64,000 nucleotides of DNA, taken from positions 1 to 64,000 of IMG/VR virus record IMGVR_UViG_3300030108_003783, one strand, 5' to 3'. The notes beneath the pieces are model-generated. The model saw only the letters and a list, made by a program, of their open reading frames with translations, did not search any database and had not been told where the DNA came from. Source of the stretch: a virus. Positions 41,884 to 63,901 of the stretch are shown here, one piece after another. The position numbers and the translations under genes were made by a program. Position 1 is the first letter of the stretch; each line of letters opens with the position of its first letter.

Positions 41884-42402
41884 ATGATTACAATGATAGA
41901 AGGCCCACGTAATACGGGCAAAACACACTTATTAAAAGAGTCTGGAATTAAGGTTTATAAATTTCCATTTGCAAAATGGTACGATATACTTGACCTTGGC
42001 AGAGATAAGCTTGCTGCTAATGCTTTTGGCATGGGAAGATTAATGCTGCATGATTTATCTAATAATGGGTATATAGATAATATTATAACTGATAGAAGTA
42101 TAATATCGCCATTAGCTTGGGGTGTAATAGAAGGAAGAGTATCGCAAAAAGAATCTCATACTTTATTGATGCATATGATTCACGAAGGTATTTTAAATGC
42201 AGATGATAAAGTAATCTATGTTACTGGTGATAACCCAAATGGTAGAAGCAGAGGTGATCATTGGGATGATTCTGATTTTGAAATAGAATCTAAAATGTAT
42301 TATCATATAATGGAAACCTTAGATAAGTATCTAGGCAATGTAATAGAATTTGAAAATAAATTTGATAACCTTTCAACAGCATTATTTAAAAAATTATTAT
42401 GA
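41884..42402 (+). CDS. P-loop nucleotide kinase (thymidylate/deoxynucleoside kinase-like)
   Basis: A 172-residue P-loop protein with Walker A EGPRNTGKT at residues 6-14 and TDRSIISPLAWG, which recalls the DR(S/Y) motif of thymidylate and deoxynucleoside kinases. An LID-like segment NGRSRGDHWD follows. It is shorter than typical kinases (about 200 residues). It overlaps the ThyA-family gene by 4 bases and stands with dUTPase, so a nucleotide role is likely; substrate not determined. Confidence 0.75.
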   Translation: MITMIEGPRNTGKTHLLKESGIKVYKFPFAKWYDILDLGRDKLAANAFGMGRLMLHDLSNNGYIDNIITDRSIISPLAWGVIEGRVSQKESHTLLMHMIHEGILNADDKVIYVTGDNPNGRSRGDHWDDSDFEIESKMYYHIMETLDKYLGNVIEFENKFDNLSTALFKKLL

Positions 42403-43148
42403 ATTTAATTTATCACCCTTCAATAGCAATAGAAAAATCTAAAGAAAAATTATATTCTTTAGGTCAAGAAGTATTCAGTGGAAAATGGCAATCAGTAGAC
42501 GTAGACCAATCTATGTGGGAATTATTTAATCACACTGTAAAATGTGCAATGCCTCAAACTGTAAAAGAAATGGTCAAAGAAATAAAACCTAATTTACCTT
42601 GGGCTGATGATCACTTTGAAGAAAGAATAGGGGGTAAACCTTTAAACCCACCACCAAGTAATGAATGGTGGCCTTTTGCTCAAAGAGGTAATAAGCAATT
42701 CAAAGCAGATGAAAAATTTTCTCATACTTATCCAGAAAGATTATGGCCACCATACAGAAAAGGTGTTAGATTTAATTATGGTTCTATGAATGATGTAATA
42801 GATTTATTGGAAAGAGAACCTTATACAAGGCAAGCATTTTTGCCAATATGGTACCCTGAAGATACTGGTGCTCATCATAAAGAAAGAGTTCCATGTACAA
42901 TAGGTTATCATTTTATCAGAAGAGATGATTGGTTACATTTATTTTACTTCATTCGTTCTTGTGATATAATAAGGCACTTCAGAGATGATATTTACATGGC
43001 AATGAGAAAAGCTAAATTTGTATTAGATGAATTAAAGAAAAGAAATAAAGAATGGGAAAATGTAAAACTTGGAATATATGATATGAAAATTATTTCATTA
43101 CATTGTTTCTCTAACGAAAAAGGAATATTAAAACAAAAAAATATATAG
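42399..43148 (+). CDS. thymidylate synthase / dCMP hydroxymethylase family enzyme
   Basis: A 249-residue ThyA-superfamily enzyme. TRQAFLPIWYPEDTG, then the catalytic-cysteine motif RVPCTIGYHF (Cys at about 167) and RSCDIIRHFRDDIYMA are clear. Where thymidylate synthases have the pyrimidine-contacting Asn (GLPFNI), this protein reads FRDDI, with Asp. An Asp there is the known switch towards dCMP in T4 gp42. The dUTPase next door argues for dTMP synthesis, so both activities remain possible. Confidence 0.8.
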   Translation: MNLIYHPSIAIEKSKEKLYSLGQEVFSGKWQSVDVDQSMWELFNHTVKCAMPQTVKEMVKEIKPNLPWADDHFEERIGGKPLNPPPSNEWWPFAQRGNKQFKADEKFSHTYPERLWPPYRKGVRFNYGSMNDVIDLLEREPYTRQAFLPIWYPEDTGAHHKERVPCTIGYHFIRRDDWLHLFYFIRSCDIIRHFRDDIYMAMRKAKFVLDELKKRNKEWENVKLGIYDMKIISLHCFSNEKGILKQKNI

Positions 43149-48546: not shown

Positions 48547-49486
48547 TATATTAAATATAAAAGATCCACTGGCAATGTCACGTGAAGCAAAGAAGCTTGG
48601 GAAAAAGATGATATCTAATTCTCAAATAAAAACTTATTCACAGTGTCCTCACAAATGGAGAACTATGTATATAGATGGGAATAAAGAATATCAACAATCT
48701 TTATTCTTTACATTTGGTACAGCTATGCATGAAACATTGCAACACTTTTTGCATGTAATGTATACTCAAACTGCTAAAGCTGCTGAATCTTTAGATCTTC
48801 CTAAAATGTTAAAGGAAGAAATGACTAAAGCTTATAAGATGGGTTTGAAAAGAAATAAAGGCGAACACTTCACAAATAAGTTTGACCTTGAAGATATATA
48901 CAAAGAAGGTGTAAAAATATTAGAATTTTTTATTAGAAAAAGAGGAGCTTATTTTTCAAAAAAGAATTGTGAGCTTTTAGGTATTGAAGTTCCTATATTT
49001 GTAGAATCTGATTGCAATCCCAATATATTAATAGGTGGTTTTCTAGATGTCGTTATGAAAGAGCACGATAAAATTAAAATATACGATATTAAAACTTCAT
49101 ATAAAACTTGGGATAAGAAAAAGAAAAAGGACAGTTCTTTCCAATTAAGATTATATAAAAAATACTTTTCAAAGCAATATGATATACCAGAAGAAGATAT
49201 TGATATAGAATATTTTATTGTAAAAAGAACCATATATGAAAATTCAGATTTTCCTCAAAGCAGAATACAACAATTTTCACCTTCATCTGGTAAACCAACT
49301 ATGAATAAAACAGCTGCAATAGTTGACGATTTTATTTTGGGAGTATTTAATGAAGATGGTTCATATAATACAGATAGAGAATATAAAGCCCTTTCTGGTG
49401 TCAAAGGTAGAAATTGCAAATATTGCCCATTTAAAACTGATTATATTAACTGCCCAAAAGAAAATAGAATAAAAACAATAATGTAA
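48536..49486 (+). CDS. RecB/Cas4-like PD-(D/E)XK exonuclease with Fe-S cysteines
   Basis: A 316-residue nuclease. C37 in YSQCPHKW and the C-terminal trio CKYCPFKTDYINC give the four cysteines of an AddB/Cas4-type iron-sulfur cluster. The nuclease core has FGTAMHETLQH, GGFLDVVMK, IYDIKTS and QLRLYKKYF (motif QxxxY). It would resect DNA ends; no CRISPR array accompanies it, so a phage recombination role is likely. No SD; translation may be coupled to the preceding gene. Confidence 0.88.
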   Translation: MNFNILNIKDPLAMSREAKKLGKKMISNSQIKTYSQCPHKWRTMYIDGNKEYQQSLFFTFGTAMHETLQHFLHVMYTQTAKAAESLDLPKMLKEEMTKAYKMGLKRNKGEHFTNKFDLEDIYKEGVKILEFFIRKRGAYFSKKNCELLGIEVPIFVESDCNPNILIGGFLDVVMKEHDKIKIYDIKTSYKTWDKKKKKDSSFQLRLYKKYFSKQYDIPEEDIDIEYFIVKRTIYENSDFPQSRIQQFSPSSGKPTMNKTAAIVDDFILGVFNEDGSYNTDREYKALSGVKGRNCKYCPFKTDYINCPKENRIKTIM

Positions 49487-49948: not shown

Positions 49949-49956
49949 TATTTATA
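49949..49956 (+). promoter_or_regulatory. late promoter motif TATTTATA heading the glycan operon
   Basis: TATATATTTATATACGAAGG, 16 bases before the RHH gene ATG. No other promoter motif is evident in a gap until 63579, so it may drive about 13.6 kb. Confidence 0.6.
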
Positions 49957-49972
49957 TACGAAGGAAATGGTT

Positions 49973-50146
49973 ATGAAATGTCGAGAAACAAAATTAACAT
50001 CTGTAAATGTCAATGACAATATAAGGAAAGAATTCAAGAAAATTGCAATTGATGAAGATATTACTTTTCAAAAGTTAGTAAATATAGCTTTGGAATTGTA
50101 TACAAAAGATGAGCAGTTTAGAAAGACTATAAATAAAAGGAGATAG
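49973..50146 (+). CDS. ribbon-helix-helix (Arc/CopG-like) small protein
   Basis: A 57-residue ORF with GAAGGAAA upstream. The product (KLTSVNVNDNIRKEFKKIA, then DITFQKLVNIALELY) has a beta strand followed by two helices as in ribbon-helix-helix DNA-binding proteins. It stands at the head of the glycan operon, 5 bases before the first glycosyltransferase gene, and could regulate it or another target. Confidence 0.7.
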   Translation: MKCRETKLTSVNVNDNIRKEFKKIAIDEDITFQKLVNIALELYTKDEQFRKTINKRR

Positions 50147-50151
50147 GTTAT

Positions 50152-51588
50152 ATGCAATTACCCAAGCTAAGCAGAGTTGTCAAAAGAAAGAAAAAAAAGA
50201 TTTTGCTATTATCTGATGATATGAGACTAAAGTCTGGCGTTGGAACAATGTCAAAAGAAATAATAAGAGGTACAGTAGATAAGTATGACTGGGTTCAAAT
50301 CGGAGGAGCACTCAATCACCCAGATGCAAACAAAGGCTTTTTTGATATATCTCAAGATGTAAAAAAGATGAGCGGAGTAGATGATGCAAGTGTAAAGATT
50401 TTACCAGTTGCTGGTTATGGTGATCCTCATGTCTTAAGAAATGTAATTAAACATGAAAAACCAGATGCAATTGTACATTTTACAGACCCAAGATTTTGGG
50501 GGTGGTTGTATAATATGGAACACGAAATAAGACAAAACATTCCAATTGGATATTTAAATATTTGGGACGATTTACCATTCCCTCATTGGAATGAAAATGC
50601 CTATGAATCATGCGATTTATTAATGGCTATTTCTAAACAAACTTATAATATAAATAAAAATGTTTGTCAAAGAAAACCAAGAACTAATTGGGACTTAACA
50701 TACGTTCAGCATGGTATAGATGAAAATATATTTAAACCGATAGACAAAACTGATCCAGAGTTTATAAAATTCAAAAGCGATATTTGTAAAAACAAGGAAT
50801 ACGACTTCATAGCATTTTTTAATTCTAGAAATATTAGAAGAAAATGCCCATCTGATTTAATTTTAGCTTTTTCAAAATTTTGTGATATGCTTCCAAAAGA
50901 AAAATCTGAAAAATGTTTACTCTTAATGCATACAGACCCAGTTGATCCTAATGGTACAGATTTACCAGCAGTAGCATCAGCTCTATGTAAAAATGCAGAA
51001 GTAAAATTTAGTGCACAAAAATTAGACGAAAAGAATTTAAATTTTATGTATAATTTAGTCGATTTATGTTGCAATCCATCTTCAGCTGAAGGTTTCGGTT
51101 TATCTCATATGGAAGCAATGATGTCAGGTACACCAACTATAGCAACTGTATTAGGAGGTTTACAAGATCAAATGGGATTCAAAATAGACGGAGAAGAGTT
51201 TAACGTTGACCACTTGACTTCGGAAATACCAAGTAATTCAACTGGAGAGTTATCAACTGATCACGGTTCTTGGACTTTACCATTATGGCCTCAAATGAAT
51301 TTGCAAGGTTCACCAGCAACACCTTACATTTATGATTCAAGAGCAAGTGTTAGTCAAATTGCAAATCAATTAAAAGTTTGGTATGACAGAGGAAATGATG
51401 ATAGAGAGAAAAGAGGATTAGAAGGAAGGAACTGGGCAATAGAAAATGGTTTTAATAATAAAGGTATGTGCAAAGCTTTCATCGATTCTATGGAGGGTTT
51501 ATTTGAAAATTGGAAACCAAGAGAAAGATTTACTTTAGAAAAAGTTGAAGAAAGTAAATGCATATATCCACAGGGAGAGTTAATATGA
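50152..51588 (+). CDS. glycosyltransferase, GT4-like (GT-B fold)
   Basis: A 478-residue protein with N-terminal KKILLLSDDMRLKSGVGTMS and the donor-site motif CNPSSAEGFGLSHMEAMMSGTPTIA near residues 305-325, whose E-x7-E arrangement is typical of retaining GT4 enzymes. FIAFFNSRNIRRKCPSDLI marks the start of the C-terminal Rossmann domain. It transfers an unknown sugar. SD AAGGAG; its last codons overlap the next gene (ATGA). Confidence 0.85.
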   Translation: MQLPKLSRVVKRKKKKILLLSDDMRLKSGVGTMSKEIIRGTVDKYDWVQIGGALNHPDANKGFFDISQDVKKMSGVDDASVKILPVAGYGDPHVLRNVIKHEKPDAIVHFTDPRFWGWLYNMEHEIRQNIPIGYLNIWDDLPFPHWNENAYESCDLLMAISKQTYNINKNVCQRKPRTNWDLTYVQHGIDENIFKPIDKTDPEFIKFKSDICKNKEYDFIAFFNSRNIRRKCPSDLILAFSKFCDMLPKEKSEKCLLLMHTDPVDPNGTDLPAVASALCKNAEVKFSAQKLDEKNLNFMYNLVDLCCNPSSAEGFGLSHMEAMMSGTPTIATVLGGLQDQMGFKIDGEEFNVDHLTSEIPSNSTGELSTDHGSWTLPLWPQMNLQGSPATPYIYDSRASVSQIANQLKVWYDRGNDDREKRGLEGRNWAIENGFNNKGMCKAFIDSMEGLFENWKPRERFTLEKVEESKCIYPQGELI

Positions 51589-52844
51589 GAAAGATATATA
51601 TAAGTTGTCCTGCAACATCTAGATCTGGTTATGGCGACCATTCAAGAGATTTAATTAGAAGTTTTATAGAAATAGATAATTCTCAAGTTACTATCATTGA
51701 TCAGAAATGGGGCGATTGTCCTCAAAACGCTTTAACAGCAAAAGATATAGATATCTCATCTAGGATATCACAAGATGGTAAGATTAAAGAAAAGCCTGAT
51801 ATTTGGGTTCAAATAACTGTACCAAATGAATTTCAACCCATAGGAAAATTTAATATAGGTATAACTGCTGGAATGGAAACAACAATGGTTTCACCAGAAT
51901 GGATAGATGGTATGAATAAAATGGACTTAAATATAGTTCCATCTAAACATTCAAAAGCAGTATTTGAAAATACAGTTTACGATAAGCATGATAAAAGAAC
52001 GAATCAAAAAGTTGGCACTTTAAAAGTTGAAAAACCTATAGAAGTAGTATTTGAAGGATCAGACTTAGAAGTTTATAAGAAAACTCAAGATATACCTGAA
52101 ACTATTAAAAAAGCTTTTTCAAACGTAAAAGAAGACTTTTGCTTCCTAACAGTTGGGCACTGGTTGCAAGGAGACTTTGGTCACGATAGAAAAGATCTCG
52201 GAACCACTATAAGATTATTCTGTGAAACATTTAAAAAGAAAGGTAATAAAAAGCCAGCATTAATTTTAAAAACTTCAGCAGCAGGTTTTTCAATAACTGA
52301 TAAAGAAGAAATGAAAAGGAAAATAAATGCAGTTTTAAAAGCTTGCAATTATTCTTGCAATGTTTATTTATTACACGGAGATCTAACTGACGAGGAAATG
52401 AATGGTTTATATAATCATCCTAAAGTAAAAGCAATGCTATCAATGACTCATGGTGAAGGGTATGGTAGACCATTACAAGAATTTTCAATAACTGGAAAAC
52501 CTACGATTGCTTCTAATTGGTCTGGCCAAACAGATTTTCTTTCAGAATACGGTTTGATGTTAGCTGGAGAATTAAAACAAGTTCATCAATCTGCAGTTTG
52601 GGATAAAGTTATATTAAAAGAATCTAAATGGTTTTATGCTGATATAAATTATACTTCAGCTGTTATTAGCGATGTATTTAAAAATTATAAAAAGCATTTA
52701 GAAAGAACTAGAAAACAAACTAAATACATAAAAGATAACTTTTCTTTAGCTGCAATGAATGATAAATTAAAAGAAGTTATTGAAAGAAATTATAATATAC
52801 CAGAAAAGGTTGAATTGAATTTACCAAAATTGGAGAAAATATAA
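51585..52844 (+). CDS. glycosyltransferase, GT4-like
   Basis: The ATG at 51585 overlaps the previous stop as ATGA and has GGGAG 8 bases upstream; the ATG at 51558 is inside the preceding gene. The 419-residue product has SCPATSRSGYGDHSRDLI at the N-terminus (GYG loop) and SMTHGEGYGRPLQEFSITGKPTIASNWSG at the donor site. It differs in sequence from the upstream transferase, so the two probably act in sequence on one glycan. Confidence 0.85.
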   Translation: MRKIYISCPATSRSGYGDHSRDLIRSFIEIDNSQVTIIDQKWGDCPQNALTAKDIDISSRISQDGKIKEKPDIWVQITVPNEFQPIGKFNIGITAGMETTMVSPEWIDGMNKMDLNIVPSKHSKAVFENTVYDKHDKRTNQKVGTLKVEKPIEVVFEGSDLEVYKKTQDIPETIKKAFSNVKEDFCFLTVGHWLQGDFGHDRKDLGTTIRLFCETFKKKGNKKPALILKTSAAGFSITDKEEMKRKINAVLKACNYSCNVYLLHGDLTDEEMNGLYNHPKVKAMLSMTHGEGYGRPLQEFSITGKPTIASNWSGQTDFLSEYGLMLAGELKQVHQSAVWDKVILKESKWFYADINYTSAVISDVFKNYKKHLERTRKQTKYIKDNFSLAAMNDKLKEVIERNYNIPEKVELNLPKLEKI

Positions 52845-53284
52845 TGAAAAAAGAAAACGAATGGATTAAAAGTCCAATAACAAATAGAGAAGAAGTTTTA
52901 ATGCACGAAGATCCAGCTGATGGAATTAGCAAAATGTGTATTGGTAGCGGTTTCTATACAAATGAAAACCCTTTAAATTATAAAAAGAATCCAGATTTTG
53001 ATATAGAAAAGTATGAATCTAAAATGCCAACTATATTGAAAGAGTTAAGATTTGATGATGGGGAATCTTATTGGTACCCATGCACAATATCTACAGCAAC
53101 AGCAATAGTATTTCCAGCTGGAACAAAGGAAGATTGGAAATGGTGCTATGCTGAGATAAAAGACCTTGAAGATCAAGTTGGAGATTATACAAGAAAATTA
53201 GATATTGAATCTGCTCAATACTTTGATAGATTTATTGAAGCAAGTAAACAAATAAATGGGTACAATTTAGATGAATTATCTTAA
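52844..53284 (+). CDS. hypothetical protein in glycan operon
   Basis: A 146-residue protein with SPITNREEVLMHEDP, then ELRFDDGESYWYPCTISTAT and GTKEDWKWCYAEI. No recognised family. It overlaps the preceding stop by one base and the following gene by 14 bases, so it is translated with the glycosyltransferase genes. No membrane segment or catalytic motif is apparent. Confidence 0.6.
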   Translation: MKKENEWIKSPITNREEVLMHEDPADGISKMCIGSGFYTNENPLNYKKNPDFDIEKYESKMPTILKELRFDDGESYWYPCTISTATAIVFPAGTKEDWKWCYAEIKDLEDQVGDYTRKLDIESAQYFDRFIEASKQINGYNLDELS

Positions 53285-53708
53285 CGAACATAGATATAAA
53301 TCTGAAGGTTTGCAAAGAGTCTCAACTTCGGGATTAGAAAAGGGTATGATAGTTTCTTGTAGATACACTAATAAAAAGGGAAGATCAAAGTCTCTTTTCA
53401 TATTAATTTTGAATCCTGGTTATGAAGGAAAAGTTCATGCAATAACCTTAGAAAAATTTTCACCTAAAGATTTAAATGGCTTAGCTGGTAAAGTTGGCGT
53501 TAGATTAATACCAAAATTTAGTGTAAGAGGTTTGAATTTCCCTAAGCTTGAAATGATCCAATCGTCTAGAAGATTTTATGGATCATTTTTAAGAAATATA
53601 AGAGATAAGTACGATGATTGTTATAGAACATATTTTACTAATAAACTTACAACAACATTCGTAGTAGATTATAAATTTGACGAAGATATAGAAAAGTTTT
53701 TACAATGA
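53271..53708 (+). CDS. conserved phage protein, unknown
   Basis: A 145-residue basic protein: GMIVSCRYTNKKGRSKSLFI, then ILNPGYEGKVHAITLEKFSP and RFYGSFLRNIRDKYDDCYRTY. The start, with a compact beta domain that ends in LNP, reminds me of a family shared by T4-like phages. Role unknown. Short overlaps at both ends tie it to the operon. Confidence 0.6.
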   Translation: MNYLNEHRYKSEGLQRVSTSGLEKGMIVSCRYTNKKGRSKSLFILILNPGYEGKVHAITLEKFSPKDLNGLAGKVGVRLIPKFSVRGLNFPKLEMIQSSRRFYGSFLRNIRDKYDDCYRTYFTNKLTTTFVVDYKFDEDIEKFLQ

Positions 53709-54142
53709 ATAAAATTATTACAGGTTTCACAGCAGGGAATTTTGATTTATTACATCCTGGATATATAATTACATTTGAGGAAGCAAAAAGGCATTGTGAT
53801 AGGTTTTTAGTTTTTTTACAAGATGATCCATCATTACATAGAAAATCAAAATATAAACCAGTTATACCATTGTACGATAGATACAGAGCTTTAATGTCTA
53901 TAAAATATATAGATGGAGTTTACACTTATCAGACTGAAGAAGAGTTATACGAGCTTATAAAGTTTTGGAAACCAGAAATAAGAATACTTGGTGAAGATTA
54001 TATTGGGAAACCTTTTACTGGTGATGACTTACCACCAAAGGTTATTTATACTTCAAGGTCTCATAAGTGGTCAACAACTAAATTAAAAGATTTGATAACT
54101 AGACAAACTATCAAACAAAACCCGGAGATATTTAAAAAATGA
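53705..54142 (+). CDS. cytidylyltransferase-like nucleotidyltransferase
   Basis: A 145-residue protein of the HIGH-superfamily. GFTAGNFDLLHPGYIITFEEA gives the GxFDxxHxGH-type site (here HPGY), and YTSRSHKWSTTKLKDLI gives the ISxT-type second motif. Relatives such as glycerol-3-phosphate cytidylyltransferase and HldE domains activate polyols or sugars with CTP or ATP. Here it would prepare an activated building block for the neighbouring transferases. The second His is replaced by Tyr. Confidence 0.8.
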   Translation: MNKIITGFTAGNFDLLHPGYIITFEEAKRHCDRFLVFLQDDPSLHRKSKYKPVIPLYDRYRALMSIKYIDGVYTYQTEEELYELIKFWKPEIRILGEDYIGKPFTGDDLPPKVIYTSRSHKWSTTKLKDLITRQTIKQNPEIFKK

Positions 54143-54765
54143 AAATAAGTTACGCAATAACAGTATGCAATGAGCATAAAGAAATAGAAAAATTATTAAC
54201 ATTTTTATTTGAACACAAAAGAAAAGAGGATCAAGTCGTAGTTCAAATGGATATGAATGCAACTGAAGAAGTTATTAATATATGCGAAAAGTTTGAAAGT
54301 AAACCTATATCAGAATATAGTTTGAATCAATTTGCATTAAATAAAAATTTCGCATCATATAAAAACAATCTAAATAAAAATTGTAATGGAAATTGGATAT
54401 TTCAAATAGATGCAGATGAAATACCTAATGAATATTTAATCGAAGCTCTTCCGTTTATATTAGAAACTAATCCTGATATTGAAGCCTATTGGGTACCTAG
54501 AGTAAATACAGTTGCAGGTATAACTGATGAACATATTGCTAAATGGGGATGGAGATTAAATGAAGATGGCTGGGTAAACTTTCCAGATTGGCAAATGAGA
54601 ATATATAAAAATGATAAAAATATATATTGGATAAAACCAGTTCATGAACAATTGAAAGGATATACTAAATTTGCAAATTTACCAGCTGAAGAAAAATTTG
54701 CTTTATATCATCCAAAGGATATTGGAAGACAAGAAAAGCAAAATGCATTTTATGAAACGATATAA
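54139..54765 (+). CDS. glycosyltransferase family 2-like
   Basis: A 208-residue GT-A enzyme: ISYAITVCNEHKEIEKLL at the start and the metal-binding DADE at residues 91-94 after NWIFQI. The segment WIKPVHEQLKGYTK towards the end resembles small LPS-core type GT2 proteins (VHE motif). It starts in a 4-base overlap with the cytidylyltransferase gene. Confidence 0.85.
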   Translation: MKISYAITVCNEHKEIEKLLTFLFEHKRKEDQVVVQMDMNATEEVINICEKFESKPISEYSLNQFALNKNFASYKNNLNKNCNGNWIFQIDADEIPNEYLIEALPFILETNPDIEAYWVPRVNTVAGITDEHIAKWGWRLNEDGWVNFPDWQMRIYKNDKNIYWIKPVHEQLKGYTKFANLPAEEKFALYHPKDIGRQEKQNAFYETI

Positions 54766-54776
54766 GGAATAGAATT

Positions 54777-55424
54777 ATGGCAAATGGAATTTATAAAGTA
54801 ACAGAACAATTTGAAGAGAGACTTGCATCTTATACGGGAGCTAGATATGCAGTTACAGTTGACAATATGAGTAATGGCTTGTTCTTAGCTTTATATTACG
54901 AAAAAAATATTGCAAAATCAATAAAAGAAGATTTTGTGACAATACCTAATAGAACATATCCATCTGTTCCATGTGAAATTATACATGCAGGTTTAAAAGT
55001 AAAATGGAAAAAGTTAAAAAGTAAAACGTTAACTGGTGCTTATAAATTAGAAGGTTCAAATATTTGGGATTCGGCTTTAAGATTTACTCATAATATGTAT
55101 AAACCAAAAACTCATATGTGCCTTTCATTTACTGGCCCATATAAAACTTTCAAACTTAGTAAAGGTGGTTGCATATTAACAGATGATCATGAAGCTTATC
55201 TTTGGTTTAAGAGAGCTAGATTTAGTGGAAGGAGAGAATGTTCATATGAAGATGACAATTTTGATATGCTTGGTTGGAACTTTTATATGATGCCAGAATT
55301 AGCCGCAAGAGGTTTACTTTTAATGAATCAATTTTACAATATAGATGGAACTCCAAAAAAGAACAAAGATATAACTCATACTTATCCAGATTTGAGTAAA
55401 TTTGAAATTTATAATAAGTCATGA
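54777..55424 (+). CDS. shortened DegT/DnrJ-type sugar aminotransferase-like protein
   Basis: A 215-residue protein matching the PLP-dependent DegT family: FEERLASYTGARYAVTVDNMSNGL, PNRTYPSVPCEIIHAGLKV, IWDSALRF (Asp that pairs with PLP nitrogen), and SFTGPYKTFKLSKGGCILTDD, where the Lys after PY is the expected Schiff-base residue. Usual length is about 370 residues; the C-terminal small domain is missing. It may be a minimal or inactive version. The next gene overlaps by 4 bases. Confidence 0.75.
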   Translation: MANGIYKVTEQFEERLASYTGARYAVTVDNMSNGLFLALYYEKNIAKSIKEDFVTIPNRTYPSVPCEIIHAGLKVKWKKLKSKTLTGAYKLEGSNIWDSALRFTHNMYKPKTHMCLSFTGPYKTFKLSKGGCILTDDHEAYLWFKRARFSGRRECSYEDDNFDMLGWNFYMMPELAARGLLLMNQFYNIDGTPKKNKDITHTYPDLSKFEIYNKS

Positions 55425-56065
55425 AAATAGCAATAATGCAACCTTACTTTGTGCCCTATTTGGGATATTTTCAATTGATCAATGAAGTAGATATATTCGT
55501 TTTTTATGACGACGTTAATTTTATTAATAGAGGTTGGATAAATAGAAATACTATAACTATGAATAACGAAATAAAAAGATTCACTGTGCCTCTTATAAAG
55601 TCTAGTCAAAATAAAAAGATAAATGAAATTGATGTTAATTGGGATAGTAAAGAAATTAATAAGTTATTAAAAACTTTCAGATACAATTTAAAAGGTAAAT
55701 CAAAAGCTATAAAAATAATAGAATCTATCTTTGAAGATAAACCAAAAAGCATTTCAGATATGGCAATTCAATCAATCAAATACTTTTGCAAAGAACTAGG
55801 TATTAAAACTAAATTTGAAAAATCTTCTGAGATAGAGTATAAAAAATCTGAAGATAAATTGTTAAACTTAGTTAATATATGCAAAAGTAAAAATATATCT
55901 AATTATGTAAATGCAGAAGGTGGGCATAAATTGTATACAAAGAAAGATTTTAAGGCTAATGGTATAGATTTGAAATTTCTAAAGGGAACGCCATCTACAT
56001 CAATTTTAGATATAATAGATTCTAAAGATATAAAAGAGAGATTACTTAATTATGAAACAATATAA
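55421..56065 (+). CDS. WbqC-like family protein
   Basis: A 214-residue protein with the hallmark start AIMQPYFVPYLGYFQLINEV, then FVFYDDVNFINRGWINRNTI and VNAEGGHKLYTKKDF. WbqC proteins occur in O-antigen and other polysaccharide clusters; their reaction is not firmly established. Together with the DegT-like gene it points to an amino-sugar containing glycan. Confidence 0.88.
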   Translation: MKIAIMQPYFVPYLGYFQLINEVDIFVFYDDVNFINRGWINRNTITMNNEIKRFTVPLIKSSQNKKINEIDVNWDSKEINKLLKTFRYNLKGKSKAIKIIESIFEDKPKSISDMAIQSIKYFCKELGIKTKFEKSSEIEYKKSEDKLLNLVNICKSKNISNYVNAEGGHKLYTKKDFKANGIDLKFLKGTPSTSILDIIDSKDIKERLLNYETI

Positions 56066-56831
56066 TAAAATATGCACAATAGATATGAGCAAGTCTTCTA
56101 AAAGTATATTAGAGGAATTGCAGCCAGTTTGGGGTAAGTTCAAAGCATATCATATTGAAAACGTAAATACCAAAGATTTTGAAAAAGAATACGAGGAAGC
56201 AGCAGAAAAATTAGGTGAAATTAGATTATGCCATCCTGTCAATGATAAAAGTACAGAATTTTCAAAGTCAAGAGATATAAAGTACAATCCAGAAATATAT
56301 CATTACTTTGCTTCTAATACTAGGCAACCATTGCATACAGATTATGCTTACTATCACGAGACAGAAAGTCCTGATTGGTTAATGTTATATTGCATGCAAC
56401 CTTCAGAATATGGCGGTAAAACTCACTTGCTGTCTACAGAGTCTTTGATTTCTATATTGAAAAAATATAATCCAAAACTTTTAGAAGATATAAAAGTAGA
56501 TGTTACTTGGAAATATAATGGAAAAGATGGAGACAAAATTCATAAAAAACCTATACTAGAAGGTCATAAAATAAATTGGAATTATTGGCAAATAAAAGAA
56601 GAATTAAATACACCAGAGGTAATGAAAATCAGAGAAGAATTTTTTACATTCTTAGAGAAAGTTATTGTTGATGGTTGTATGTATGACTTCTCAAAGATTT
56701 GGAAACCTGGAGACTGTATAATTTTTAATGACAAATTTACTTTGCATGGAAGAGATGCTTTCTTAGGTCAAAGATGGCTAAAAGATCATGCATTTTATTC
56801 AAAACAAAAAGAAAGGATGTATCATATATGA
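56052..56831 (+). CDS. TauD/TfdA-like Fe(II)/2-oxoglutarate dioxygenase
   Basis: A 259-residue protein with the iron site H95-x-D97 in RQPLHTDYAYY and the distal His in FNDKFTLHGRDAF, followed by the arginine of the WLKDHAFY region. GGKTHLLSTESLI is typical of TauD relatives. It would hydroxylate an unknown small substrate or sugar-linked group. The first 14 bases overlap the WbqC gene. Confidence 0.82.
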   Translation: MKQYNKICTIDMSKSSKSILEELQPVWGKFKAYHIENVNTKDFEKEYEEAAEKLGEIRLCHPVNDKSTEFSKSRDIKYNPEIYHYFASNTRQPLHTDYAYYHETESPDWLMLYCMQPSEYGGKTHLLSTESLISILKKYNPKLLEDIKVDVTWKYNGKDGDKIHKKPILEGHKINWNYWQIKEELNTPEVMKIREEFFTFLEKVIVDGCMYDFSKIWKPGDCIIFNDKFTLHGRDAFLGQRWLKDHAFYSKQKERMYHI

Positions 56832-58501
56832 AATACGTAATATGGGTAGATAGTTACAGATCAAATAGTGGTGGTATTGCTGTATTGCATAAGTTAGGAC
56901 AGAAACTTCAAGAGAAAGGTTGCAGTGTATATATGTATTCACCTAAAAGTTTACCAGGATTAAATCTGATAGATAACTATGGTGTTGAAAGAATAAAAGA
57001 TGAAGCTTGGATAATATATCCAGAAATAGTAATAGGTAATCCTTTAAATGCTAAAAATGTAATCAGGTGGGTTTTAAATAGTCCTGGATATATTGGAGGC
57101 GATTCAAATACTTGGGGTAACAATGATTTAGTATATTCTATAGGTGATTATTTCAAAATAGACAAGTCAATAAATGTAGAAGGTTATCTGAAGATTTGGG
57201 ACTTTAAGCTTGATTATTGGAAAGATGAAAATTTGGAAAGGTCTATCGATACTCATCTTATTAGAAAAGCAAAAGATAGAGCTGGTTCTAAAAAGAATGC
57301 AACTTTTGATATGCACTCTAAAGATTCTATTTGTTTAGATGGAGATATTGCAAATGACTTTTCAAAATTAAAAGAAAAATTAAATCAGACAAAAACTTTT
57401 ATTAGCTATGACTCAGCTACATACTATTCAACAATTGCAGCATTATGCGGAGCAATATCAGTTGTAATACCAGATGGAAAAAATAGCAAAGAAGAATATA
57501 AAAGAAAATTCCCTTTATGTAAATATGGAGTTGCTTGGGGCTTAGACGATATTCAATGGGCAATAGATACAAAAGATAAAGTAAGACCTCACTTAGAAGA
57601 TATGGAAAAAGAATCCGATGATCTTTTAGATGAATTTATATTAAACACTTCAAAAGCAAAATTGTTTTTAAGAACAGCAAACAACAAAATCTTTTCAGCT
57701 GGTGAAGTATACAAATTAGGATTTCCAATTGAAGAACCTTTTTATATACCAAAAGAATACATTGAATCTAAAGAATATACAATATTAAGAACATGTCATG
57801 GCCTTGGAGATTGGGGTATTATTTCTTCTTTACCTAGAAAATTGAAAGAAGCATATCCTAATTGCAAAGTAAATATTCCATCGCCTAAATTACTTAGTGA
57901 ATTGTTCAAGGGTCACGAAGAAAGATGGTCTTCATGGGATAACCCTTTCAATGTAGTTAAAACTATATTTGATAATAATCCTTATGTTGATAATTACATA
58001 GACAGCTTTCAAGGTGAAATTTACAATGATCATTATCATATTTACGATGGAACAAAAGATGAACCTTTAGCAAAACAAATTCTAAGGTTTTGGAGAGTAA
58101 AAGATTTAAGTAATATACAACCAGAAATATATTGGACAAAAGATGAAGAAGAAAAAGCAAATGAAATTATAAAAAATAATCTTGGTGATGAATTTGGTTC
58201 TTTAATGTTATCTAATAGATTCAATAATGAAAGCATTGATACTATTCAATCTATATTAAATGATCAAAATTTACCTATAGCTTATTGGACTTCATCAGAA
58301 AATCATGGATTAGTATTTGACAAAAAATTAGATTTAAAAGATATAGATATAAGAATTCAATTGCTAATAAGATCCAAGGGCAAATTTACAGTTGGCAATC
58401 AATCTGGAGCTGTAGACGTTTTACCTAGGTACACTAAAACTTTTATTTTACCTAGAACTAAATTAAGAAGTAACATAATAGATGGAGCATATTATATATG
58501 A
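56828..58501 (+). CDS. two-domain glycosyltransferase (GT-B plus GT9-like)
   Basis: The ATG at 56828 overlaps the previous stop (ATGA); the ATG at 56774 lies inside the upstream gene. The 557-residue product has an N-terminal transferase-like half (VDSYRSNSGGIAVLHKLGQK, later TFISYDSATYYSTIAALCGA). From about residue 317 it has a second half resembling heptosyltransferase-type GT9 proteins (TCHGLGDWGIISSLPRKLKE, ending FTVGNQSGAVDVLPRY). A fusion of two sugar-transfer units is inferred. Confidence 0.72.
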   Translation: MKYVIWVDSYRSNSGGIAVLHKLGQKLQEKGCSVYMYSPKSLPGLNLIDNYGVERIKDEAWIIYPEIVIGNPLNAKNVIRWVLNSPGYIGGDSNTWGNNDLVYSIGDYFKIDKSINVEGYLKIWDFKLDYWKDENLERSIDTHLIRKAKDRAGSKKNATFDMHSKDSICLDGDIANDFSKLKEKLNQTKTFISYDSATYYSTIAALCGAISVVIPDGKNSKEEYKRKFPLCKYGVAWGLDDIQWAIDTKDKVRPHLEDMEKESDDLLDEFILNTSKAKLFLRTANNKIFSAGEVYKLGFPIEEPFYIPKEYIESKEYTILRTCHGLGDWGIISSLPRKLKEAYPNCKVNIPSPKLLSELFKGHEERWSSWDNPFNVVKTIFDNNPYVDNYIDSFQGEIYNDHYHIYDGTKDEPLAKQILRFWRVKDLSNIQPEIYWTKDEEEKANEIIKNNLGDEFGSLMLSNRFNNESIDTIQSILNDQNLPIAYWTSSENHGLVFDKKLDLKDIDIRIQLLIRSKGKFTVGNQSGAVDVLPRYTKTFILPRTKLRSNIIDGAYYI

Positions 58502-59139
58502 AAAAGATAGTATACAATTCTGAAAAATTTAATTGGCAAAATTCTATTGCAAAATTATTTGGTGTAGATTATTTACATAACATAAATGAAAATGTAGAAG
58601 TATTCAAAAGAGAAACTGACCAGAATACAAAATTCCATAGTTTATTCTATGATTGGATAAGAAAGGAATCAACTGTAAAAATGTATACAGACTTTATAAA
58701 TGAAGTGGTAAGACCTCTTTACGATGAAGAAATAGTTTATCAATCCATCCCTACTTTCAGAGTTTGCTATCCTAATAATATAGCAGTTGGGGAATTTCAC
58801 AAAGATAAATATTATAGGAATATAGAATGGGCTGAAAAAGTAAAAGAGCTAAATTACTTTTTACCGATAACTGATGCATTTGAAACTAATACTATTTGGG
58901 TAGAATCAGAAGAAGATAAAGGCGATTATAAACCTATGAATTGCAATTATGGCGAATTAATTCAATGGGACGGAAGCAATCTAAGTCACGGAAATAAAAT
59001 AAACAAAACGGGAATGTGCAGAATATCAATGGACTTTAGAGTAATTAAAAAGTCAAACTATATAGACAGCGACCACGAAACGATTAACACTAAAACAAAA
59101 TTTGGTATTGGTGGATATTATAAAGAAACAGGAGAGTAA
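58498..59139 (+). CDS. 2-oxoglutarate/Fe(II) dioxygenase-like protein (StrG-like)
   Basis: A 213-residue protein. FRVCYPNNIAVGEFHKDKYY supplies H101-x-D103, and LSHGNKINKTGMCRISMDFRV supplies the distal His and the 2-oxoglutarate-binding Arg. The pattern is like the streptomycin-cluster StrG oxygenases. It is the second oxygenase of the operon and unrelated in detail to the TauD-like one. 4-base overlap upstream. Confidence 0.72.
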   Translation: MKKIVYNSEKFNWQNSIAKLFGVDYLHNINENVEVFKRETDQNTKFHSLFYDWIRKESTVKMYTDFINEVVRPLYDEEIVYQSIPTFRVCYPNNIAVGEFHKDKYYRNIEWAEKVKELNYFLPITDAFETNTIWVESEEDKGDYKPMNCNYGELIQWDGSNLSHGNKINKTGMCRISMDFRVIKKSNYIDSDHETINTKTKFGIGGYYKETGE

Positions 59140-59141
59140 AT

Positions 59142-60608
59142 ATGTTTTTAATAAAAGACTTAAAGAAAAAGTATACAACAGACGATACCGTAAAAAATCA
59201 AATCAAGATTCACTTTGGTGATTGCTCAAAGCTTGAAAAGGAATACGATGAATTTTGGGATAATCAATTGATGGGTCAAATTTTAAATCACTGGGCTAAT
59301 CCTGACCGTCACGTTGCTGGAGCTGGGCCAATAGATTATAATGAAGGTAAAATTTTATATTTATATATTAGAACTAAAAAACCAAAAAACGTTTTGGAAA
59401 TTGGTCATGCTGGTGGAGCTTCATCTATTGTTATATTAAAAGCTTTGGAAGAAAATGGAAATGGTAAATTATGCACTTGTGACTTGAAGTCTTGGAGTGA
59501 AGATCCTAATCTATTACCACTTTTTAGAGATTATATAGATAACAAATCTGATATGCTAGAAATGCATGGTCATATCGATGCACTAGAACTGATACCTAGA
59601 TTAACTACTAAATTCGATATAGTATTTACAGATGCAAGTCATGAGCTAGAATTTTGTTTACCAATGGCAAAAATACTAAAAGAAAAATATCCAGAAGCAT
59701 TACATTTATATCATGAATGGGCATTCTCACCTTTCTCTAGTAAAGAAGCTCAAGATTATTTAAGTATAAAAGAAAATATATATCATCAAAAAATGGCAGA
59801 AAGAGAAGCTTTTGAAAAGGTTTTTGATATAGCTGATTATCATCATTTTGGTTTTTATGGAAGTTGCGGATTGGGAGTTGTAAAGAAAAGAGAAGAAACT
59901 CAAACAATAAAAGTTTATTATAGATTATCAAATCAGCAAGCTGGTATTCACAAAAATAAAATTGCAAATGCAAACAAAAAAAATTGTTTAGAAAATTGCA
60001 TAAATAAATTTGGAAAAGAGAATATAACTGTTTTAGGCGACAATTTAAATACAGAACATATAGAATGGCTTAGAGATTTAGGTATAAGATTTATAGAAGT
60101 TTCTAATGGAAATGGTTCTGGAACTTTTAGAGATGCATTAAATTTATGCATAAAAGAGAATTTAGAATCTGATTTTGTATATTTATTAGAGGATGACTTC
60201 TTACACAAAGAATCATCAAAAGAGTTATTAATAGAAGCATTAAATAAATACGACGGTTATATTACATTGTACGATCACCCAGATAAATACATCAATAAAG
60301 AAGATGGCGGTAACCCTTTTATAGAAGAGGGAGGAGAAGTAACAAGAGTTGTTACTACTAAGAATGTGCATTGGAAAATTACAAATTCAACAGTTATGTC
60401 TTTTGCTGCAAGAGTATCTAGATTGAAACATGATAAAGAATTATTAGAAAAATATTCTTCTAATAGAATAACAGATTCTTTTAGTTTCTTTACAGAATTA
60501 TCTAGAGAAAAAGGTATACCAGCATTAAGTTCTATTCCAGGTTTTTCTACTCATTGTGAATCTGCATGGTTATCACCGTTTACTAATTGGGAGGAGATAA
60601 ATGATTAG
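59142..60608 (+). CDS. methyltransferase-glycosyltransferase fusion
   Basis: A 488-residue protein. Residues about 80-250 form a class I SAM-dependent methyltransferase (motif I VLEIGHAGGASS, then GKLCTCDLKS, FDIVFTDASHE). From about residue 252 a second domain begins (IKVYYRLSNQQAGIHKNKI), with GT-A-like FVYLLEDDFLH carrying a candidate DxD site. Sugar O-methylation coupled to transfer is a reasonable inference. SD AGGAG; it overlaps the next gene by 8 bases. Confidence 0.78.
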   Translation: MFLIKDLKKKYTTDDTVKNQIKIHFGDCSKLEKEYDEFWDNQLMGQILNHWANPDRHVAGAGPIDYNEGKILYLYIRTKKPKNVLEIGHAGGASSIVILKALEENGNGKLCTCDLKSWSEDPNLLPLFRDYIDNKSDMLEMHGHIDALELIPRLTTKFDIVFTDASHELEFCLPMAKILKEKYPEALHLYHEWAFSPFSSKEAQDYLSIKENIYHQKMAEREAFEKVFDIADYHHFGFYGSCGLGVVKKREETQTIKVYYRLSNQQAGIHKNKIANANKKNCLENCINKFGKENITVLGDNLNTEHIEWLRDLGIRFIEVSNGNGSGTFRDALNLCIKENLESDFVYLLEDDFLHKESSKELLIEALNKYDGYITLYDHPDKYINKEDGGNPFIEEGGEVTRVVTTKNVHWKITNSTVMSFAARVSRLKHDKELLEKYSSNRITDSFSFFTELSREKGIPALSSIPGFSTHCESAWLSPFTNWEEIND

Positions 60609-61389
60609 TGTAATAATTCCATCTTACAGGAATCCAAAATGCTTAGATATTTGTTTAGAGTCTGCATTAAGAGGGCAAGATAAAGATAATGAAATAATAT
60701 GCATTTTAGATGGTTACCCTAAAGAATCTGCAAACGTTTTAGAAAAATATAAAAACGATGTAAATTTTTTACCCTTACCTGAAAATAAAGGTATGCAATA
60801 TGCATTGAATATGGGTGTTTATAATGCTTCATATGATAAAGTTCTAATAGTAAATGACGATAATGTATTCCCTATAGATTGGGATAAAATATTATTAGAA
60901 GATTATAATGATAATTTAATTTTAACACCCAATCAAATAGAAAAAGCAGAAAGCTTATTTAATTTTGAGACAAATGATTTGGGAAGCCCTGATAATTTTG
61001 ATTTAGAAAATTTCTTTAATGAAGAGCTTAATCATAGAAAAAATAATATTACAGATGACGGTGGCATCTTCCCTTTTCTAATTTCAAAGAAAAAGTATAT
61101 GATGGTTGGAGGATTTGATACTTTATACCCATCTCCATTTATTTGCGATTGGGATTTCTTTTTAAAATGTGAAATTGCTGGAATGGAAACAAAGCGTTCA
61201 AGAAAGTTATGTTTTTATCATTTTGGTTCGGTTTCAACTAAAAATGGAAAAGAGGGTGAAAGATTCAAGCAATCAGAATTACAAGCTGTAGATTTATATA
61301 AATATAAATGGGGATTCGATATGGTATTAAATGAAGATAACTCTCATTCGCCTAAAGGTCAAACAATAAAAGGAATTAGATATGAATAA
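60601..61389 (+). CDS. glycosyltransferase family 2
   Basis: A 262-residue GT-A enzyme: ISVIIPSYRNPKCLDICLES at the N-terminus, ENKGMQYALNMGVYNAS, the metal site VNDDNVFP at about 84-91, and CDWDFFLKCEIAGME near the acceptor region. It overlaps both neighbours by 8 bases. Donor and acceptor unknown. Confidence 0.88.
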   Translation: MISVIIPSYRNPKCLDICLESALRGQDKDNEIICILDGYPKESANVLEKYKNDVNFLPLPENKGMQYALNMGVYNASYDKVLIVNDDNVFPIDWDKILLEDYNDNLILTPNQIEKAESLFNFETNDLGSPDNFDLENFFNEELNHRKNNITDDGGIFPFLISKKKYMMVGGFDTLYPSPFICDWDFFLKCEIAGMETKRSRKLCFYHFGSVSTKNGKEGERFKQSELQAVDLYKYKWGFDMVLNEDNSHSPKGQTIKGIRYE

Positions 61390-62389
61390 AAAAATATTGA
61401 TAACTGGAGTCGCTGGATTATTGGGATCAAGACTAGCAGATTGGATAATAAAAAATACAGACTATAAAGTAATTGGTATAGATGATATGTCTGGTGGATA
61501 TATTGAAAATGTACCTAATGGTGTAAAACTTTATAAGTTTGATTTAAAAGAATTAGACAGAGTAAAAGATCTATTCAGAAAGCATAAACCAGAAATAGTA
61601 TATCATTTTGCAGCTTATGCTGCTGAAGGCTTGTCACCATTTATTAGAAAATTTAATTATGAAAATAATTTAATAGCTTCTACAAATCTTATAACTTGCA
61701 GTATAGAACAAGATGTAAAAAGATTTATTTTTGCAAGTTCTATGTCTGTATATGGAAATAAATATGAACCACCTTTCCATGAAGATTTACAACAATGCCC
61801 TATTGATCCTTATGGTATTGCAAAGTTTGGTGTAGAACAAGATTTGAAGATTGCTTATGAACAACATGGTTTAAAATATACAATTATCAGACCTCATAAC
61901 TTTTATGGTCAAAATCAAAATATTTGGGATAAATACAGAAATGTATTAGGAATATGGATGTATCAAATAATAAATGGTATGCAACCTACTATATTTGGTG
62001 ATGGTGAACAAAAAAGAGCTTTCAGTTATGTTGACGATTCAATTATCCCATTTTGGAATGCTTCACAAAGAGATGAATGCATAGATGAAATAATTAATCT
62101 TGGTGGTATAAAAGAATATACAATAAATGAAGCTTGTAATATTTTATGCAAAGTTACTGGCACTGATTTAAAACCTAAATATTTAGAAGCAAGGCACGAA
62201 GCAAAACATGCATGGTCAACATGGGAAAAATCTCAAGATCTTTTAGATTTCAAACACGAAATAGATTTAGAAGAAGGTTTAACTAGAATGTGGAATTGGG
62301 CACAAACACAACCAAACAGAAAAAGATTCTTTTGGGGAGATTACGAATTAAATAAAGGAATTTACGATTATTGGAAAACAGAAAAATGA
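61382..62389 (+). CDS. NAD-dependent nucleotide-sugar epimerase/dehydratase
   Basis: A 335-residue extended short-chain dehydrogenase. GVAGLLG at 9-15 binds NAD; FASSMSVYG and YGIAK supply the catalytic Ser and Tyr-x3-Lys; RPHNFYGQNQ and RAFSYVDDS are typical of UDP-glucose 4-epimerase relatives. The C-terminal 40 residues (YELNKGIYDYWKTEK end) are less conserved. It likely supplies an epimerised sugar nucleotide to the transferases. Confidence 0.9.
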   Translation: MNKKILITGVAGLLGSRLADWIIKNTDYKVIGIDDMSGGYIENVPNGVKLYKFDLKELDRVKDLFRKHKPEIVYHFAAYAAEGLSPFIRKFNYENNLIASTNLITCSIEQDVKRFIFASSMSVYGNKYEPPFHEDLQQCPIDPYGIAKFGVEQDLKIAYEQHGLKYTIIRPHNFYGQNQNIWDKYRNVLGIWMYQIINGMQPTIFGDGEQKRAFSYVDDSIIPFWNASQRDECIDEIINLGGIKEYTINEACNILCKVTGTDLKPKYLEARHEAKHAWSTWEKSQDLLDFKHEIDLEEGLTRMWNWAQTQPNRKRFFWGDYELNKGIYDYWKTEK

Positions 62390-63210
62390 AAACACTAGGA
62401 ATTATTGGTCAAGGATTTGTTGGAACTGCAGTCTTTGAAGGTTTAAAAGAGCATTATATTATAGAGACTTATGATATCAGTAAAGAATCAACATGTAAAT
62501 CCTTAGATGAAATATATGGAAAATCTGAGGTTTTGTTTTTATGTTTACCTACACCAATGGATATTAATGGTTCATGCCACTTAGGAATCATAGAACCAGT
62601 ATTAAAAGAATTAAATTCATTTGGAAAAAAAATAATTATTGTAAAATCTACAATCCCACCGGGCACAACGGAAAAATGGAACTCAGAATATAAAAATTTA
62701 GATATAGTATTCAATCCAGAATTTTTAACTGAAGCAAATTCAATTGAAGATTTTAAAAATCAAAATAGAATTATAATTGGTGGTCCAAGACCAGCATCAA
62801 CAAAAGTAAGAAGATTATTTAAAAAAGCATTTCCAAGAGTTGCAATAATTAAAACAAGTTCAACAATAGCAGAAATGGTTAAATACTTTACAAATTGTTT
62901 TTTAGCAACAAAAGTATCATTTGCAAATGAGATGTACGAAATCAGTAAAGCTTTAGATATAGATTACGATAAAGTAATTGAATATGCTCAATATGATACA
63001 AGGATAGGTAATTCCCATTTAGAAGTACCAGGACCAGATGGAGACTTTGGATACGGGGGTCATTGCTTTCCAAAAGATGTTAGAGCTTTAATTGATAAAG
63101 CTGAAAAGCTTGGACTGATGCCTTTGATGCTAGAAGCAACAATGACAAAAAATAATATAATTAGAACCAATAGAGATTGGGAAAAACAAAAAGGAAGAGC
63201 AGTAATATAA
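62386..63210 (+). CDS. UDP-glucose/GDP-mannose dehydrogenase-like, lacking C-terminal domain
   Basis: The ATG at 62386 overlaps the epimerase stop (ATGA). The 274-residue product has GQGFVG at residues 8-13 (NAD), LCLPTPMD, VKSTIPPGTTE, NPEFLTEANSIEDF, and GYGGHCFPKD with the catalytic Cys at about 227. Normal enzymes are about 430 residues; the C-terminal UDP-binding domain is absent, so substrate binding must differ or the enzyme may be a partial one. Confidence 0.85.
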   Translation: MKTLGIIGQGFVGTAVFEGLKEHYIIETYDISKESTCKSLDEIYGKSEVLFLCLPTPMDINGSCHLGIIEPVLKELNSFGKKIIIVKSTIPPGTTEKWNSEYKNLDIVFNPEFLTEANSIEDFKNQNRIIIGGPRPASTKVRRLFKKAFPRVAIIKTSSTIAEMVKYFTNCFLATKVSFANEMYEISKALDIDYDKVIEYAQYDTRIGNSHLEVPGPDGDFGYGGHCFPKDVRALIDKAEKLGLMPLMLEATMTKNNIIRTNRDWEKQKGRAVI

Positions 63211-63452
63211 TGCAATATTTTATTTTATTTCCAGAAGACACAGAAAAAGAAGTTGTATTCGAAGATAACCTATTAGGAGAAAGTTCTTTTAAAACCTTTT
63301 GGGGTGGAAGAGGATTAATTAAATTAATGACCATGGTAGATAAGACTCCAGAATTATTAGGGTTAGTTAGAATAAAAGATGATAAAGGAAAAGAATACGA
63401 AGTTTTAGAATTTTTAGATTCAATTAAAAAATTAAAAGTCAGGACAAGATAA
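63210..63452 (+). CDS. conserved small phage protein, unknown
   Basis: The ATG at 63210 shares a base with the previous stop (TAATG). The 80-residue product (QYFILFPEDTEKEVVFEDNL, then GESSFKTFWGGRGLIKLMTM) looks like a small protein conserved in T4-like phages. Role unknown. It ends in another TAATG overlap. Confidence 0.65.
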   Translation: MQYFILFPEDTEKEVVFEDNLLGESSFKTFWGGRGLIKLMTMVDKTPELLGLVRIKDDKGKEYEVLEFLDSIKKLKVRTR

Positions 63453-63574
63453 TGAAAATTAATATCAATAAATTAGTAATTGACGATGATGGTGAAATTA
63501 AATTACCAAAAAGAAAAAGAAAAAAATCTGTTAAGAAACATAGAGAAGAAAAAGATCATCCTAACAAAAAGTAA
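63452..63574 (+). CDS. 40-residue basic protein
   Basis: A short ORF linked to the previous gene by a TAATG overlap. MKININKLVIDDDGEIKLPK is followed by an almost purely Lys/Arg tail ending HPNKK. Coupling supports translation. A nucleic-acid-binding role is possible from charge alone. Confidence 0.55.
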   Translation: MKININKLVIDDDGEIKLPKRKRKKSVKKHREEKDHPNKK

Positions 63575-63578
63575 TATA

Positions 63579-63586
63579 TATTTATA
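63579..63586 (+). promoter_or_regulatory. late promoter motif TATTTATA
   Basis: AATATATATTTATATATTTAATAAGGAG, 20 bases before the next start codon. Confidence 0.55.
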
Positions 63587-63867: not shown

Positions 63868-63901
63868 TATTTAGTTTGGTTTTTTGATATTTATTAAAGA
63901 A

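Follow-up and report, generated by a model that had tools for sequence, protein, structure and literature searches.

A phage glycan operon with a fixed glycosyltransferase core and an exchanged cassette of sugar genes

Genes and layout of the operon

The first 64 kb of the 133,730-base IMG/VR virus record IMGVR_UViG_3300030108_003783 (the window) carry a 13-kb operon of glycan genes, in which glycosyltransferases (GTs) are accompanied by enzymes that make or modify sugars. A first-pass annotation had proposed this operon, and family and open reading frame (ORF) checks confirmed it together with the position of its genes, all of which lie on the plus strand. From the ribbon-helix-helix (RHH) gene at 49973 to the ORF with its end at 63452, the 16 junctions amount to +5, -4, -1, -14, -4, -4, +11, -4, -14, -4, -4, +2, -8, -8, -4 and -1 bases, based on the most plausible ATG starts as chosen by the analyst (e.g., 51585 rather than 51558 for GT4b). 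Thirteen of the 16 overlap by 1–14 bases, compared to 55 of the 157 plus-strand junctions genome-wide (hypergeometric P about 1e-4), in agreement with the near-universal overlap noted earlier.

The first gene encodes a 57-aa, Arc-like RHH protein and possible autoregulator (49973..50146), whose assignment (phrog_3180, E=0.0044) is weaker than had been claimed. It is followed by two core GTs of the GT-B type, namely GT4a (50152..51588; PF00534 over the cut-off, phrog_2170) and GT4b (51585..52844; PF00534 below the cut-off, phrog_2170 at 4e-20). Behind these lie two small conserved core proteins, unk1 (52844..53284; 100 profile matches among the proteins of 154 loci carrying both GTs), some homologues of which have a Cys-rich, ribbon-like N-terminus, and unk2 (53271..53708; 48 profile matches). 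Their structural models (pLDDT 87.9 and 89.3, respectively) gave no PDB fold match at E<=0.001, and weak sequence matches to UHRF1 and other proteins were discarded. An HldE-II/TagD-like nucleotidyltransferase (53705..54142; PF01467, 49 bits; phrog_7878), previously listed as cytidylyltransferase, precedes the core GT-A enzyme GT2a (54139..54765; PF00535 over the cut-off), a candidate protein O-glycosyltransferase.

Downstream of GT2a, a short DegT aminotransferase (54777..55424; PF01041) consists of the large domain only and retains the Asp and Lys of the PLP site, as judged by alignment and motif check. Next to it lie a WbqC-like protein (55421..56065; PF08889, 1.6e-51), a TauD-type Fe(II)/2-oxoglutarate oxygenase with an HTD motif (56052..56831; PF02668, 1.2e-19) and a two-domain putative GT (56828..58501), which has half-length homologues and whose C-terminal half is free-standing in relatives. 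A second putative Fe(II)/2-oxoglutarate oxygenase (58498..59139) features an HKD (HxD) motif, yet scored only 27.5 bits against TIGR04324 (sporadic carbohydrate cluster; curated cut-off 150), and is thus less well supported than the earlier annotation suggested. Searches of 50,697 phage records yielded one relative of the WbqC-like protein and none of the second oxygenase. The following gene encodes an O-methyltransferase (59142..60608; PF13578) fused to a putative GT-A domain, which is also free-standing in relatives. Family support was searched for both the C-terminal half of this fusion and the two-domain protein (56828-58501), and none was found, with one homologue of these putative GTs (L073) giving a PF00535 match below the cut-off. 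The operon continues with GT2b (60601..61389; PF00535 over the cut-off, 5.2e-19), an NDP-sugar epimerase/dehydratase of the SDR type with YxxxK motif (61382..62389; PF01370, 1.1e-43) and a short UDP-glucose-dehydrogenase-type enzyme (UGD; 62386..63210), in which the C-terminal domain is missing and the GGHCFPKD motif is present (NCBIfam NDP-sugDHase, 194.7 bits versus a cut-off of 189.8).

Hence, four GTs of the "at least five" that had been counted are identified by profile (GT4a, GT4b, GT2a and GT2b), while two more are putative and without family. The proposed methyltransferase, DegT- and WbqC-like proteins, epimerase and sugar dehydrogenase were all recovered, and the enzyme set covers amino, uronic, methylated and hydroxylated sugars, as expected for the unusual glycan that had been suggested. 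We considered the short DegT and UGD as decayed genes and rejected this option, because homologues of similar length are conserved: the DegT protein is 71% identical to a 214-aa protein of Flavobacterium phage immuto and kept at 71-75% across immuto, L003 and L212, and the UGD homologues (273-281 aa) are 52-57% identical. The two miniature enzymes (54777-55424 and 62386-63210), both minus their C-terminal domain, represent stable phage families.

A fixed core and an exchanged middle

The most informative feature of this locus, which is invisible from one sequence, is the combination of a core that stays fixed and a cassette that is swapped. The order PD-(D/E)XK nuclease, RHH, GT4a, GT4b and GT2a recurs in aquatic viral contigs and in immuto (vB_FspM_immuto, Immutovirus), the nearest cultured relative found, so that a few fixed enzymes are common to well over 100 aquatic phage sequences. 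Viral contigs hold at least 598 relatives of GT4b and 115 of GT4a. Among 168 loci, taken from the top 80 matches of each query and thus tilted to close relatives, with ORFs called by a simple greedy caller, the nuclease matched in 158, GT4a in 161, GT4b in 159, GT2a in 122 (some loci stop short of it), the SLOG gene in 88 and the RHH gene in 82 (by tblastn). GT4a and GT4b occur together in 154 loci, 119 of them non-redundant, and are neighbours in 153. Non-redundant subsets comprised 62 loci where flank length was required, 60 rows with all four marker genes (including the window phage) and 118 loci for the upstream motif count described below. In the cultured phage Mel-JY01, the core order is kept and two short GT ORFs replace GT4a.

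The GT4b family looks restricted to phages, since all 16 GT4b loci in genome_contigs (84,980 species) lie on contigs of metagenome-assembled genomes (MAGs) and show a phage-like gene order, with GT4a beside GT4b in 15 of the 16. Some locus-bearing phage contigs (L199-L214) are binned as Euryarchaeota, Woesearchaeota and Pelagibacter MAGs, probably by misbinning.

Outside the core, the middle of the locus is exchanged between relatives, whereas the flanks are conserved. In the 62 non-redundant loci, 490 downstream proteins fall into 265 families, compared to 70 families for 331 upstream proteins, and gene sharing was lower downstream than upstream in 1,821 of 1,891 locus pairs, which are not independent of each other. 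The closest long relative, G003, illustrates this pattern: its left flank from SLOG to GT2a is 59-88% identical to that of the window and its right flank, from the methyltransferase fusion to unk4, 67-91%, while the middle of the window's operon (DegT, WbqC, TauD, two-domain GT and oxygenase) is replaced by ten other genes. Only three of these are distantly related to window proteins, namely an oxygenase (43%), a DegT protein (28%) and a GT-like half (43%). The right-flank gene unk3 (63210..63452, plus strand) is 78% identical in G003 and matches in L006, L008 and L100. The protein at 63884 was discarded as a marker of the right border, as it matched in 14 of 42 records, mostly partially.

Three other phages (G006, G007 and G026) combine a GT4b of 54-55% and a GT2a of 82-88% identity with unrelated cargo that spans some 15 kb or more, including NeuB-, NeuA- and KdsB-like proteins according to the analyst's reading of the translations. 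Genes resembling NeuB, NeuA, KdsB or a carbamoyltransferase are found at this locus in L196, L197 and L198, which suggests sialic-acid-like sugars in phages. A scan of 140 cargo families, taken from 254 eligible ones of the 265 (at least 120 aa, GT2a excluded), yielded matches to 78 Pfam families; 25 listed among them were mainly sugar-nucleotide enzymes, methyltransferases and GTs, with NeuB in two cargo families.

GT2a itself has moved horizontally between backbones, mostly without the remaining cargo. Fifteen phages including the window phage have GT2a proteins that are more than 75% identical to each other and 79-88% to that of the window, and their GT4b proteins are less than 60% identical in 87 such pairs. 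On the GT2a tree this type forms one clade (SH-aLRT 99), but on the GT4b tree it needs eight changes, at least six of them forced by well-supported branches, as judged from quick trees. Joint travel of GT2a and cargo found little backing, as pairs of this type share a fraction of 0.107 of the other downstream genes and other pairs 0.049.

Such extreme variability of the cargo could also be read as neutral filler DNA, i.e., host sugar genes piling up at a tolerant recombination hot spot, an option raised for cyanophage lipopolysaccharide (LPS) genes in PMC3037559. We consider this very improbable for the operon described here, as the core GTs show dozens of columns that are invariant or almost so among 22-25 divergent sequences, the frames are open and tightly coupled with intact catalytic motifs, and the short DegT is conserved as described above.

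Timing and acceptor of the glycan

Promoter-like motifs point to a late expression of the operon. A late-class motif, TATTTATA, stands at its head (49949..49956, plus strand), as had been noted before, and a second one marks the right border of the transcription unit (63579..63586, plus strand). The bare TATTTATA is found upstream of head, sheath and hub genes, of GroES (46108), of the operon (49949) and of the gene that follows it (63579). Of the 44 genes behind a gap of 40 bases or more, 19 have ATATTTATA upstream, compared to 1 of the 100 behind short gaps. TATTTATA or TATAAATA occurs no more than 400 bases before GT4a in 82 of the 118 non-redundant loci, compared to 18.1 +/- 3.5 loci (maximum 28) in 200 shuffles. 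In immuto, the late motif lies at 48911 between nuclease and RHH gene and a right-side motif at 59947, and late motifs bracket the locus also in G003 and L100. The early class, TTGGATA(T/A)GTC followed by TTATATT(T)A, is located upstream of replication genes, such as those for primase (114415) and DNA polymerase (43608), an exonuclease gene (36974) and the kinase-hydroxymethylase unit (41849). Gene names in both classes were taken from immuto matches and profile searches. The separation into two sharply distinct classes (41849, 43608 and 49488 versus 13350, 16869 and 49949) was observed in the window and in L011-L014, and the first early-class box has no site in immuto. One early-class motif (49488) precedes the SLOG gene in front of the operon, so that read-through from there is possible; given the late-class motifs at the operon head and their enrichment across loci, late expression is nevertheless likely.

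Based on these findings, we propose, with a probability of roughly 0.5, that the late-expressed cassette serves to synthesise an oligosaccharide in the cytoplasm of the host and to link it to at least one virion protein before assembly. Sugar-nucleotide enzymes would yield unusual activated sugars, a core GT, with GT2a as candidate, would start the chain on Ser or Thr of the virion protein (O-glycosylation), and GT4a and GT4b would make a conserved inner core, to which the exchangeable enzymes would add and modify outer amino, uronic, methylated and hydroxylated sugars. Recombination between the conserved flanks would swap the middle of the locus among relatives, so that the coat type could change while the attachment machinery stays constant. 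Possible benefits include the evasion of particle-binding defences or grazers, or an adjustment of adsorption. Somewhat more tentatively, T4-like aquatic phages of a widespread group might carry such a phage-specific protein glycosylation system, with a fixed GT4a-GT4b-GT2a core, bracketing late promoters and an outer-sugar cassette swapped between lineages.

Whether the virion or the host surface is decorated had been left undecided by the first-pass annotation; two lines of evidence now tilt the acceptor towards a cytoplasmic protein, favouring a virion protein. Firstly, none of 782 downstream proteins from 106 loci is polytopic (at least two predicted membrane segments), and neither Wzx, Wzy, a ligase nor a GtrA/GtrC-like membrane protein was found among them. 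Nineteen have one predicted segment; with the exception of a likely signal peptide in L010, we interpret these segments as strands or helices buried in soluble proteins. None of the 22 window proteins tested has any. As the same script detected flippase and polymerase of the Escherichia coli K-12 O-antigen cluster (RfbX with 9 and WbbH with 6 segments), a phage-made lipid-linked polymer is unlikely. Secondly, the best PDB match of GT2a is GmaR, a flagellin O-GlcNAc transferase (profile 6.4e-15 over residues 3-202, nearly the full GT2a length; 4.8e-7 and sole match at E<=0.01 with the single sequence), and the chlorovirus GT B736L is the best PDB profile match of GT4a (1.5e-16) and the sole one of GT4b (2.4e-6).

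The same data bear on a remodelling of the host surface, where the operon would change the LPS core or a cytoplasm-facing glycolipid late in infection and thereby block superinfection or the loss of progeny to debris. This interpretation has been given for pelagimyophage GTs (PMC7029224), and the sugar classes of the cargo do resemble O-antigen clusters. Apart from the missing polytopic proteins, however, a late surface change would leave a virulent phage little time to profit from it, and the phage-restricted core GTs would need to suit the surface glycans of hosts as disparate as Flavobacterium and Microcystis. Overall, we regard it as unlikely.

DNA as acceptor had been set aside on timing, an argument that does not hold as stated, since the genome encodes a thymidylate synthase (TS) homologue with the Thr and Asp of the T4 dCMP hydroxymethylase. 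This protein (42399..43148, plus strand; phrog_160, 4.4e-23) lies upstream of the DNA polymerase and aligns with T4 gp42, sharing a Cys-Thr and an Asp (Thr and Asp at E. coli TS positions 147 and 177), as known from the Asp-type homologue of T4-type DNA glucosylation. According to PMC8670742, these two positions distinguish the TS proteins of contigs with modified cytosine. Together with the adjoining kinase-like (41884) and dUTPase-like (43158) genes, this raises the option that cytosine may be modified in the phage DNA to 5-hydroxymethylcytosine, to which the cassette would add a variable oligosaccharide, hiding the DNA from restriction and CRISPR. Eight GT-locus carriers (G001, G002, G003, G006, G007, G026, G029 and G030) have an Asp-type TS as well. 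It does not accompany the locus throughout, however: no PF00303 match was found in 31 of 42 GT-locus records, many of which are fragmentary, although these also include Mel-JY01 (190,001 bases, deposited as complete) and records of 168 kb and 123 kb, while immuto and G024 have an ordinary Asn-type TS. Furthermore, the hydroxymethylase unit has an early-class promoter and the GT operon a late-class one, and the operon proteins gave no match to T4-type DNA GT (alpha/beta-GT) families in Pfam or PHROGs. A Tet/JBP search of 12 records and G000 gave no match either, which is a weak control because the model gave no over-cut-off match in control genomes. DNA glycosylation thus appears improbable to about the same degree as surface remodelling.

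Several points speak against the glycosylation of a virion protein. Its acceptor is a proposal, and no virion glycan of immuto or its relatives was found in the literature consulted. The late timing is predicted from the motif, and two core members, unk1 and unk2, are without functional assignment. With respect to structure, the match of GT4b to B736L covers only 74 residues in the common nucleotide-sugar motif region, and best PDB matches reflect which structures have been solved. GTs acting on the LPS core are soluble as well, so that the lack of membrane proteins leaves room for a host-surface acceptor, and the hydroxymethylase-like gene would make DNA a chemically possible one.

Related systems and the phage genome

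One parallel is the capsid glycosylation of chloroviruses (PBCV-1, NY-2A). PMC7019647 describes capsid glycans with a conserved core, other sugars outside and a dimethylated rhamnose cap, made in the cytoplasm by virus-encoded enzymes. The operon shares soluble phage-encoded GTs with this system, B736L being the nearest solved relative of GT4a and GT4b, and on the level of gene content also a conserved core with variable periphery. Chloroviruses, in contrast, infect eukaryotes and have their GT genes scattered in the genome, whereas the locus described here is one operon of a tailed phage with a proposed acceptor. A second parallel is flagellin O-glycosylation, based on the resemblance of GT2a to GmaR and the NeuB/NeuA-like cargo of relatives. 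GmaR, however, adds one GlcNAc and doubles as a regulator, and the phage has no flagellin. For FlmG, which uses NeuB-derived sugars, cytoplasmic glycosylation of assembling subunits is reported in PMC7591256, and virion glycosylation in mycobacteriophages is cited in PMC12619734.

Variable regions of T4-like marine phages are known to hold GT and LPS gene clusters (PMC7029224 and PMC3037559). The hypervariable host-recognition cluster of pelagimyophages and the LPS clusters of cyanophages, however, sit in a tail-fibre island or near hli/phoH and tRNAs, while the operon lies beside nuclease and RHH genes, with a fixed GT trio and without a fibre gene. No description of this trio with exchangeable cargo was found in the titles and abstract openings searched, which included few subscription papers. 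T4 glucosylation of hydroxymethylcytosine resembles the window phage, which has a hydroxymethylase-like gene, but the operon lacks a T4-type GT, has a late-class motif and encodes many more sugar enzymes. Flippase, polymerase, ligase and GtrA/GtrC membrane protein, as typical of O-antigen clusters and Gtr serotype conversion, were not found among the downstream proteins.

Phage sugar clusters have usually been classed as host-surface modifiers or filler. If virions were decorated, the operon would give tailed phages an equivalent of chlorovirus capsid glycosylation that switches type rapidly, i.e., exchangeable particle serotypes of complex glycans, in some relatives with nonulosonic-acid-like sugars, which would have consequences for adsorption, immune recognition and phage ecology. 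Cassette swapping in phages would then resemble the bacterial exchange of capsule or O-antigen types. As a source of sugar enzymes, the loci moreover offer conserved phage-specific GTs together with hundreds of cargo families, and immuto, which is cultured on Flavobacterium sp. LMO8, allows a direct test of virion decoration.

The GT locus of immuto (MW353176, 48941-59944) has, like the window, the order DUF3310, PD-(D/E)XK, RHH-like, GT4a, GT4b, small protein, GT2a and cargo, but differs in its cargo, in an ordinary TS and in annotated 7-deazaguanine genes, which are the best match of no window-phage ORF. GroES and GroEL lie upstream of the locus in both phages. Overall, 59 of 164 ORFs match immuto, including terminase (54% identical), capsid protein (50%), sheath and baseplate genes; virion and replication genes are thus shared and in similar order, and we make no claim at the genus level. 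A close DNA relative was not found in the phage collection. The host of this large phage is probably a member of the Bacteroidota, given the kinship to immuto and a protein downstream of the operon with an N-terminal signal peptide ending in ..FAQ, which is typical of this phylum.

Further downstream, G000 (L011) encodes a 1057-aa protein with signal peptide and without PHROG match (67074-70247), which is unusual in a phage, and a run of genes (73330-77663) whose proteins start alike at the N-terminus (MIKLK..I-like), two of them behind an early-class promoter box.

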